Source: Collinsella bouchesdurhonensis
GTDB lineage: Bacteria > Actinomycetota > Coriobacteriia > Coriobacteriales > Coriobacteriaceae
DNA: 64,000 nucleotides
Reading direction: 5' to 3'
Assembly: GCF_900155365.1 (NCBI RefSeq)
Contig: NZ_LT699743.1
Coordinates: 250,219-314,218 of the forward strand
The translations under genes were made by a program, and so were the position numbers. A model generated the notes under the pieces. That model made no database searches and was not told where the DNA came from. It was given only the letters and a program-made list of their open reading frames with translations. Of this stretch, positions 4,139-45,781 are shown one piece after another (position 1 is the first letter of the stretch; each line of letters opens with the position of its first letter).

Positions 4139-4148
4139 GCAGTCGCTG

Positions 4149-4332
4149 TTTCAGGGCGGGGTGAAATTCCCCACTGGCGGTAAATCGGCCGGCGCAATCC
4201 CGCGTCGCGTCCCCGACAACGGTTGCCGGGTGTACATCCGATAAGCCCGCGAGCCTGGCTGGCATTGGGTTGCCTGCAGGCCGATCCGGTGAGAATCCGG
4301 TGCCAACGGTTAGAGTCCGGATGGAAGAGGCA
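4149..4332 (+). promoter_or_regulatory. FMN riboswitch (RFN element)
   Basis: All signature blocks of the RFN element are present in order: TTCAGGGCGGGGTGAAATTC at the start, CCCCACTGGCGGTAAAT, AAGCCCGCGAGC in the middle, GATCCGGTGAGAATCCGGTG and GCCAACGGTTAGAGTCCGGA near the 3' end, closing with GAAGAGGC. The element is known to bind flavin mononucleotide and to shut down expression by termination or by hiding the ribosome site. It ends 9 bases before the ribU ATG, so it covers the ribU initiation region; control of translation start is the simplest reading, since I see no separate terminator between it and the gene. Confidence 0.97.
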
Positions 4333-4341
4333 GGTGATCTC

Positions 4342-7549: not shown

Positions 7550-7984
7550 ATGGACGATTCCTCCGCCGCCTCCGGCATCGACACCGCACTCACGTACCTT
7601 ACGTCTATCCCCGCCTGGTACCTTGCGACGAGCATAGACAATCAGCCCCATGTGCGTCCCTTCTCGTTTGCCGCCAAGCAAGACGGGAAGCTCTGGTTTT
7701 GCACCGCAACCACCAAAGATGTTTGGCAAGAACTGCTTCAAAACCCTCTGCTCGAGGCTACTGCCTGGTGGCCAGGACACGGCTGGCTTATCCTGCGCGG
7801 CCGCGCCGGCATGGACGGCTGCGTCTCCGATGAGATTCGCGAAGCAGGATGGAAACATCTCGAAAGTCTGGGCGAACACTACGATGGCGCATGCGACCCC
7901 ACGCTCGTCTTCTTTAGCCTCGAGGACCCCAAAGCCTGGATCTGCAACCACGACGAATGGAAGCCCCTCCCCCCTCTAATGTGA
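7550..7984 (+). CDS. pyridoxamine 5'-phosphate oxidase-family protein, copy 1
   Basis: A 144-residue protein of the split-barrel flavin-binding (PNPOx-like) superfamily. The pattern 'SIPAWYLATS...PHVRPFSFAAK.DGKLWFCT' near the N-terminus is the usual FMN-binding barrel edge of this family. A ribosome site AAGGAG precedes the ATG. It is closely similar to the next gene (8046-8477), so the pair arose by tandem duplication. It starts 16 bases after ecfT, and may share its transcript, which would place a likely flavoprotein behind a riboflavin transporter. The substrate is unknown. The stop codon lies inside a palindromic repeat. Confidence 0.8.
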   Translation: MDDSSAASGIDTALTYLTSIPAWYLATSIDNQPHVRPFSFAAKQDGKLWFCTATTKDVWQELLQNPLLEATAWWPGHGWLILRGRAGMDGCVSDEIREAGWKHLESLGEHYDGACDPTLVFFSLEDPKAWICNHDEWKPLPPLM

Positions 7985-8015
7985 CAAAAAGTCGACAGGT
8001 TTAATTTGTCACATT
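7978..8015. repeat. TGTGACAAA palindromic repeat, copy 1
   Basis: An 11-bp perfect inverted repeat (AATGTGACAAA ... TTTGTCACATT) around a 16-nt centre containing GACAGGTTTA. A near-identical element lies at 45321-45354 in the opposite orientation (30 of 34 positions identical). The first copy overlaps the stop codon of the upstream gene. There is no T-run, so it is not a standard terminator. Confidence 0.75.
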
Positions 8016-8045: not shown

Positions 8046-8477
8046 ATGGACGAAATCGTCTCGTATCTACGCCGCATACCCGCATGGTACCTCGCCACCA
8101 TCGACGTTAATGACCCCACCCAACCGCGCGTGCGTCCGTTCTCGTTTGCTATGGCAGACGCCGGGAAGCTCTGGTTTTGCACCTCGCGCGACAAGGATGT
8201 TTGGTTTGAGCTCGAAGCTCATCCCAAGTTCGAGCTCTCCGGCTGGAAGCCCGGCGAGTGCTGGATCGTCCTTTCGGGCACGGCAAATCTAGCAGACGAT
8301 GCCCAGGTGAGCGATGCCGTGCGCGAAGCAGGATTCAAGCATATGGTCGGCATCGGCGAGCACCACAGCAGCGCCAACGACGGACGCCTTGCCTTCTTTA
8401 GCGTCGAGGCAGGCACTGCGCGCTTTTGCGATATCGATGGCAGCGAGCGCGTCGTCAAGCTCGACGACCTTGCATAA
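8046..8477 (+). CDS. pyridoxamine 5'-phosphate oxidase-family protein, copy 2
   Basis: A 143-residue split-barrel flavin-binding protein and tandem paralogue of the gene at 7550-7984. Both share 'RIPAWYLAT', 'RVRPFSFA', 'GKLWFCTS..KDVW' and 'EAG.KH' blocks. The start has AAGGAG 7 bases upstream. These stand-alone small proteins in anaerobes are often annotated as general stress or nitroreductase-like proteins, but no substrate can be read from the sequence. It ends before an inverted repeat at 8511-8556 that separates it from the convergent dehydrogenase gene. Confidence 0.8.
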   Translation: MDEIVSYLRRIPAWYLATIDVNDPTQPRVRPFSFAMADAGKLWFCTSRDKDVWFELEAHPKFELSGWKPGECWIVLSGTANLADDAQVSDAVREAGFKHMVGIGEHHSSANDGRLAFFSVEAGTARFCDIDGSERVVKLDDLA

Positions 8478-25349: not shown

Positions 25350-25490
25350 ATCCAAAACACCAGAACAGCGCCGCAGGATTTGTCCCCGTTTTTTGACAAA
25401 TGGGTAACGAGAACGACACCCTATCGCCGTGCACAGGTAAAGCACGGTAGAATAGTGCCCGCAAGCTGGACTCAAGCATAAGGAGCGCGC

Positions 25491-41320: not shown

Positions 41321-42223
41321 AGCGAGCCCCCTTTCTTTTGCCAGATATCCTTAGTCTGATTATTCAGAAAAGGGGGCGGCCATATCAGGTGACACACGTT
41401 CCAATAACGGTTTGAGACGATTGTCTCAGTGCACGATCAGCGCAGGAAAACGCGCATAGCCAGCAGTGGTCGCACTGGTACAGAGGGGAATATCAACACG
41501 GGCGCGATTGCGATTTGACGAGTGCCATGCCCACCGAGGCATTGGCCATGAAAATGAAGGATGGTGCCTGCATTTTGCCCATAGGATGCAAGCGATCATG
41601 GCTACTCGGCCAAGTACGACTTCTTCTGTAATGCGCTCAACGACCTCACCATACCCCCTCGTGTCACCGGCGCGCCCGCTGGCGGCTTTTTCGCCCCTCG
41701 ACAAGATTCTTTCCTCCCCCGACGCGCCCTTCTGTCGCCGCCCGCACTCACCACTAGGCCAACCAGTGGCGGTAAAACGCGCATTTCAAAATGAATGGCG
41801 GATAATCCAACGTTTTGCGAACGATTTGTCCCCTCGGATGCACGATTAACCGCCACTCGTTTAGAAATGCACCAAAACCGCCACTCGACAGGACACGCCA
41901 TCACACAAACCGGAAATAGCGAACCCGGAAGCGCACCAAAAACCACTACTCGGTTGGTAGCCACTTGATCGTCGGCGCCTACCGCACGAACCCCACGTGC
42001 CAAAACGACAGGTTATTCTTGGTGCTACGGCTACCTGGCACGGCGCCCAACGTTTCTGCATTGTTTCCGTCTGTGCTTTTTGCAGGTAGCGGCTCCATTC
42101 GTCGTATTCTAGTTGATTAGCGCGCGTAACTTTCTCGCATTAGGTTGCAAGGGGGAAGGGAATGAGTCCCTTCCGGTTGCGTCGTGCGGAAGGGGTAACA
42201 CAACTTTTTTGGAGGCTCTCATC
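41321..42223. other. 900-base intergenic region with repeats and no clear gene
   Basis: The region between the adhesin and the ABC transporter. A minus-strand frame at 41426-41704 (92 residues, ending TTAGYARFPALIVH) has no ribosome site and no family; it could be the relic of a gene. A repeat element with GTGGCGG boxes occupies 41761-41889. Near 42150-42172 a hairpin GGAAGGGA-ATG-AGTCCCTTCC lies in the leader of the transporter gene. Confidence 0.5.
41761..41889 (-). repeat. GTGGCGG-box repeat element, copy A
   Basis: Four boxes: AGTGGCGG (41765), ATGGCGG (~41794), CCGCCACTCG (41850) and CCGCCACTCG (41878). The reverse complement aligns box by box with the element at 51224-51380, including the spacer 'CGAGTGGCGGTT-N12-TAAACGAGTGGCGGTT' and a later AAATG..CG.TTTACCGCCA stretch. 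A degenerate extra copy, ACCACTACTCGG, lies at 41942-41953. Confidence 0.7.
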
Positions 42224-45320: not shown

Positions 45321-45354
45321 TGTGACAAAATAAACCTGTCTTGTTTTTGTCACA
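45321..45354. repeat. TGTGACAAA palindromic repeat, copy 2
   Basis: TGTGACAAAA ... TTTTTGTCACA with GACAGGTTTA in the centre on the minus strand. It matches the copy at 7978-8015 at 30 of 34 positions in opposite orientation. It stands between the transporter operon and ssrA. Confidence 0.75.
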
Positions 45355-45416: not shown

Positions 45417-45781
45417 TGGTGGAGGTGCGGAGAATCGAACTCCGGTCCACGAAAGCCCCCTGATCGGCATCTCCAAGCTCAGTCGCTGATTTAATCTCGG
45501 ACGCGTTGCGCGCAGCGACACGCTCGCAGCATCCCAACCGGTTCGGTCTTAGCCCGCGCCATACCGATTACGTGCACAGGAGCATTCCCCTAAAATGACG
45601 TCGCACCGGTGTCAGGGAAATCACCGGGTTGACGCGCCAGCTATAAATTAAGCAGCGAGAGCCATGGGCTCATAAGAAGTGTTGTTGTCAATTCAATTTG
45701 ACGGTACCCCTGTTTTACGAGGCGAGGAGACCTCGGCTTGCTTCCTCTCTCAAGGCTATCGTGTCGAAACCAGTCACCCCC
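45417..45781 (-). ncRNA. ssrA: transfer-messenger RNA (tmRNA)
   Basis: The 5' end GGGGGTGACTGGTTTCGAC and the 3' end with T-arm GGAGTTCGATTCTCC and CACCTCCACCA are both diagnostic; the acceptor stem GGGGGTG/CACCTCC pairs fully. The tag frame (45648-45689) reads DNNTSYEPMALAA and stops at TAA. tmRNA frees stalled ribosomes and marks the unfinished protein for destruction. The 365-base length is normal for a one-piece tmRNA, and a terminator follows 8 bases after the CCA end. Confidence 0.97.

Follow-up and report, generated by a model that had tools for sequence, protein, structure and literature searches.

A species-specific family of 34-bp palindromes in Collinsella bouchesdurhonensis, probably REP-like mobile elements served by a single resident Y1 transposase

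The window analysed here, a 64,000-nucleotide stretch of the Collinsella bouchesdurhonensis genome, carries two copies of a 34-bp palindrome in opposite orientation, as had been claimed in an earlier note on this DNA, together with a tmRNA gene and two other structured RNAs (Table 1). Copy 1 is bracketed by two similar and adjacent open reading frames of the same strand, apparently paralogues; the TGA stop codon of the upstream one (7982-7984) falls inside the left arm of the element. The arms of this copy are TGTGACAAA and TTTGTCACA, and its asymmetric loop contains GTCGACAGGTTTA. Copy 2 is found past the tmRNA gene and in the same orientation, beyond the terminator-like hairpin of that gene. 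The tmRNA assignment in the earlier note agrees with Rfam. ARAGORN missed this gene.

Table 1. Features of the window and of the transposase locus (prefix L034), which lies on another contig.
Feature	Position	Strand	Remark
FMN riboswitch (RF00050)	4143-4336	+	Rfam
Open reading frame upstream of copy 1	7550-7984	+	
Element copy 1	7980-8013	+	34-bp palindrome, consensus-pattern match
Open reading frame downstream of copy 1	8046-8477	+	
Small palindrome	25378-25401		ATTTGTC..GACAAAT
Corio-PBP RNA (RF02945)	42120-42193	+	94.9 bits
Element copy 2	45321-45354	-	34-bp palindrome, consensus-pattern match
Terminator-like hairpin of tmRNA	45408-45379		
tmRNA gene	45417-45781	-	Rfam match, 160 bits
Bracketing element copy	L034:7401-7434	+	genome coordinate C11:434900(+)
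Transposase gene	L034:7449-8192	-	chosen start codon
Bracketing element copy	L034:8446-8479	-	genome coordinate C11:435945(-)

Recomparison of the two copies gave the identity counted before, 30 of 34 positions. The span 7978-8015 proposed for copy 1 was right in location and 2 bp too wide on each side, the palindrome itself being 34 bp long. The consensus pattern matched just twice in the window, at these two copies, and never in 100 shuffles. Folded as single-stranded DNA, copy 1 forms a stem of 9 bp that closes a loop of 16 nt (z -2.8); in copy 2 the stem measures 10 bp and the loop 14 nt (z -3.0). By eye, the right flank of some copies could be read as a promoter (TTGTCA-17-CATATT); this candidate was set aside, as the scan gave no promoter-like site in the stretches around either window copy. 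The small palindrome further along the window had been listed beside the two copies as a looser motif. It is a true palindrome in an intergenic gap, is single-copy in the genome and was found in none of 41 congeners at up to 3 mismatches; it is therefore not a member of the family.

The dispersed family that the earlier note had suggested from two copies is borne out by the whole genome (G000; 1,876,212 bases in 15 contigs, 99.77% complete). At up to 3 mismatches 46 copies were found, 20 forward and 26 reverse, against 0 for the control pattern, and a weight-matrix scan of 180,578 bases gave 4 further degenerate copies. Further copies in the genome and conservation in relatives had both been looked to for a decision; the former exist, and the latter is missing at the species level, the 34-bp element being absent from all 38 other genomes scanned, which include 23 congeners. 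For an element that has spread recently, lack of conservation beyond the species favours mobility and disfavours a conserved binding site. The exact pattern also had 0 matches in a scan of a genome-contig collection, from which records of this or a very near genome are perhaps absent.

Within the family, the positions of CGACAGGTTTA are almost invariant (each kept in 44 to 46 of the 46 copies), and in 36 copies an A directly precedes the element. The octamer reads GTCGACAG in 27 copies, others having AACGACAG and further variants. Watson-Crick pairs occupy 415 of the 460 arm cells, and 2000 trials in which left arms were re-paired with right arms gave 414 at most; at the fifth arm pair, T-A replaces A-T in 4 copies, which may be partly of common descent. 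The asymmetric loop is conserved over the 46 copies while some arms change together. The units are mostly single palindromes, and the doublets among them amount to 2 head-to-head and 2 direct pairs. When right flanks were sorted by ad hoc rules, two sequences recurred: 17 copies were TTTTCAC-like (TTTTCACAnnnCCTTCATATT-like), 13 GCCGTT-like (TTTTGCCGTTCACCG-like) and 16 other. The recurrent flanks are perhaps halves of former doublets.

Sites corresponding to individual copies were then compared in congeners, absence being judged by eye. All 7 congeners aligned lack copy 1 between the orthologous genes (7 of 11 congener loci inspected; 29 congeners had a match), and copy 2 is missing downstream of the tmRNA in 6 of 6 congeners inspected (6 of 11 congener loci; 41 congeners had a match). 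The elements at L034:9630, L034:13072 and L034:1998 were likewise missing in the 9, 4 and 1 congeners inspected, respectively. The transposase unit described below is missing at 4 congener sites inspected. Between aligned parts, the genes on its two sides stand 1,100 bp apart in G000; the corresponding gap measures about 130 bp (G016), 145 bp (G017) and 416 bp (G023), and in G056 the next gene, fructokinase-like, directly follows the left gene. Since the congener genes are about 70-80% identical and the spacers hardly align, exact junctions and target duplications are unreadable; on these alignments, what the congener sites indicate is absence of the element, not exact junctions.

Only one Y1/HUH transposase gene was detected in the genome, by Pfam and equally by the family alignment. 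It is bracketed by inverted copies of the element, and additional copies lie outside this pair at distances of about 1.5 and 1.2 kb. The predicted protein, P0001, has 247 residues and matches Pfam Y1_Tnp at 36.5 bits (cut-off 23); its match to NCBIfam REP_Tyr_transpos, at 62 bits, is under the cut-off of 80, and the same model picks up each of the 15 aligned members at an E-value of 0.001 or better. The residues H60, H62, Y119, N123 and P124, which make up the HxH and Y---NP motifs, are invariant in all 15. The alignment covers 14 of the 15 Coriobacteriia loci described below (L050 was omitted, its protein being the same as that of L049), the other 25 of 40 loci lying outside it. The AlphaFold model of P0001 (mean pLDDT 88.3, pTM 0.68) has as its best fold match in the PDB 4er8, in which a REP transposase is bound to its REP hairpin (E 5.9e-8), followed by IS200/IS605 transposases; a sequence search of solved structures reached 4er8 at E 0.7 only. 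The model places C-terminal helices at residues 205-246. At E up to 1, HTH_23 was matched in 5 of the 15 members (best 5e-4) and HTH_28 in 2, and no HTH match was obtained for P0001 itself.

The position of the copies relative to gene ends was determined with gene calls from a crude codon-usage script, by which RNA genes were not called and the transposase gene was missed; a few copies thus have misassigned neighbours. The copies proved intergenic, none of the 46 lying inside called genes. A gene of the same direction precedes 36 of them, and in 20 of these cases its stop codon is no more than 10 nt away. Among the 44 copies with both neighbours called, 17 are in convergent and 4 in divergent gaps; for comparison, the 46 adjacent gene pairs of the window comprise 10 convergent, 9 divergent and 27 tandem. 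In tandem gaps, 17 copies run with the gene direction and 6 against it (p 0.035). The copies are also clustered: 17 neighbour pairs are less than 5 kb apart versus 5.2 expected, with a maximum of 13 in 5000 trials.

Such placement could suggest species-specific terminators or 3'-UTR stabilisers kept by selection and not mobile. The proximity of 20 copies to stop codons, a TTTT behind the hairpin in 26 of 46, and a consensus RNA fold of about -9 kcal/mol are in line with this proposal. The terminator scan is uninformative on the element because it allowed loops of 3-8 only and the element loop is longer. However, copy 2 sits between separate terminator-like hairpins, and neither the conserved loop sequence nor the inverted copies around the transposase gene would be explained. 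We consider a purely terminator or stabiliser function very unlikely; such a role may exist as a secondary effect. Slightly less credible still, and likewise very unlikely, is an operator function, in which a regulator with a large regulon would bind its DNA sites at the palindromes. Their near-symmetric arms TGTGA..TCACA resemble an operator and their intergenic location would suit one, but the copies lie behind gene ends and not at promoters, divergent gaps hold few of them, the scanned stretches around the window copies are free of promoter-like sites, and the orthologous congener sites inspected are without the element. Retention of an asymmetric loop while some arms co-vary, and inverted copies flanking a transposase gene, also speak against an operator.

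Related transposases were collected at 40 loci, 15 of which (L046-L060) belong to Coriobacteriia; for one of these the placement rests on flanks identical to those of a locus from G394, a genome of this order. Inverted palindromes that vary with the species accompany these genes. The palindrome core is GGGGACAGG, GGGGACGGG or GGGACGGGG in 10 of the 15 loci, other GGGG words occur in 4, and L054 is without. In several relatives, such as L052, L053 and L058, the octamer is GGGGACAG, in contrast to the mostly GTCGACAG octamers of the 46-copy family. Inverted repeats at the related genes exceeded the 95th percentile of shuffles in 45 of 45 loci (all scores above 18) and the shuffle maximum in 26, where the shuffles preserve single-base composition only and several alignments extend into coding sequence; 37 of 45 exceeded the 95th percentile of cross-locus pairs. 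These 45 represent about 35 distinct loci, as two collections overlap, and L106, which is the resident locus again, was omitted. The match at L102 (score 19) is probably spurious.

The transposase is present in 171 of 396 genomes of the class. Palindromes of the TGACA..GACAGGT..TGTCA type occur in 29 of the 396, with up to 114 copies (G218) and a control of 0 in every row; 24 of these 29 genomes have the transposase versus 147 of the 367 others (Fisher p 8e-6, uncorrected for phylogeny). The palindrome type is found with no transposase match in G360 (86 copies; 85% complete), in G310 (10 copies; 99% complete) and in G114, G248 and G271 (1 copy each), so that palindrome and transposase are not strictly coupled. 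Possibly the palindromes of G360 and G310 outlived their transposase, or the G360 genome is incomplete. Among the other congeners, 33 of 39 have the transposase of this group, and G046 alone has the palindrome type (4 copies, with other arms). A second, low-copy family, AATGATT..GGGACGGGGAT..AATCATT, was found in 19 of the 42 genomes of the genus, each with 1 to 5 copies. Palindromes of this second family also flank the transposase gene in L046 and L047. The transposase/palindrome pairs thus vary between species. Neighbouring copies less than 200 bp apart were 22 times head-to-head, 9 times direct and 2 times tail-to-tail among the first 6 to 10 places of each genome, over 12 of the 29 matching genomes; all 46 copies of G000, with the doublets given above, were examined in the same way. 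The head-to-head spacing was 40 bp four times in G321 and 29 bp three times in G099, and was less regular elsewhere.

The RAYT groups were reportedly set up by Bertels in 2017. A GTAG motif is described in RAYT groups 2 and 3 (PMC8266576), and single REPs are described as usually decaying remnants of REPINs (PMC8049555). Short intergenic palindromes, a single-copy transposase gene lying between copies and inverted, head-to-head doublets are shared by the present family with the GTAG REP/REPIN/BIME systems of those accounts; unlike them, it has no GTAG at the foot of the hairpin and a conserved word in the loop. Despite these likenesses, we consider it extremely unlikely that the palindromes form a GTAG REP/REPIN family of the classical type, served by a RAYT of group 2 or 3. 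In none of the 46 copies does GTAG occur up to 8 nt from the left foot of the hairpin, or CTAC up to 8 nt from its right foot, and the modelled C-terminal helical extension of the transposase, with HTH matches in some relatives, is as described for subclass 2.1. Compared to a classical IS MITE, in which terminal inverted repeats end a 70-300 bp element with target duplication, the units here are mostly single 34-bp palindromes.

Closer likenesses are found in TIRtrons, whose RAYT-like genes (TIRYTs) lie between TIRs. The sequence GGGGWSAS is common to several of these TIRs, and some TIRs occur dispersed, in moderately abundant families that include dimers (Di Nocera 2013, PMC3733652). As described there for TIRtrons, a RAYT-like HUH/Y1 gene is located here between inverted repeats unrelated to GTAG, and the repeats are also dispersed. 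The published motif, shared by some TIRs and not required, differs from the present loop, which lacks GGGG and has mostly the octamer given above. Eggerthella, Collinsella, Coriobacter- and Actinobacteria do not occur in the main text of that paper, the species lists of its figures apart, and no report of the present family was found in the open-access literature searched. Subclass 2.1 of TnpA_REP, the second largest subclass, probably corresponds to TIRYTs and matches RAYT group 1, and REP-like sequences are stated not to be found near its genes (PMC6006769). Compared by description only, the present transposases resemble this subclass in the class 2 Y---NP motif, the C-terminal extension and the HTH-like matches in some relatives; unlike the subclass as portrayed in PMC6006769, they have palindromes on either side of the gene, which in some genomes also occur dispersed.

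Taken together, the 46 copies, the one HUH/Y1 gene between inverted copies and the element-free congener sites point to the REP-like element or small mobile palindrome that had been offered among other readings in the earlier note. With high probability these copies are mobile REP-like palindromes of the non-autonomous kind, making up a TIR family with a single TIRYT of RAYT group 1 (subclass 2.1), by which their mobilisation is inferred. The 46 copies were very probably spread by the one resident transposase. The best reading is that this Collinsella species harbours a TIRYT and a TIR family that are new, within a known but little-studied kind of mini mobile element.

A mechanism may be proposed along these lines. 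The transposase would recognise the hairpin in single-stranded DNA through its stem and loop word, nick beside the hairpin through Y119 and join the hairpin at new sites; such single-strand HUH chemistry is presumed because of the protein family. Copies would spread at a low rate and would persist mostly right behind the 3' ends of genes, a position in which they would be almost harmless. Transcript ends may be affected as a secondary consequence, which the explanation does not require.

A wider and more tentative idea, towards which we lean less than against, is that group-1 (subclass 2.1) transposases of Coriobacteriia keep REPIN-like populations, each with a palindrome of its own, and read a GGGGACAGG-like loop word in place of a GTAG foot guide. 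If true, recognition would follow another logic here, and would do so in transposases for which REP partners are reported to be lacking. Many species of Collinsella and its relatives have different transposase/palindrome pairs, and a comparison of these pairs would bear on recognition through the loop and on how domesticated transposases spread over long times. For Collinsella bouchesdurhonensis itself, the mobile palindrome reading would explain a species-specific repeat that one might otherwise take for a regulatory site.
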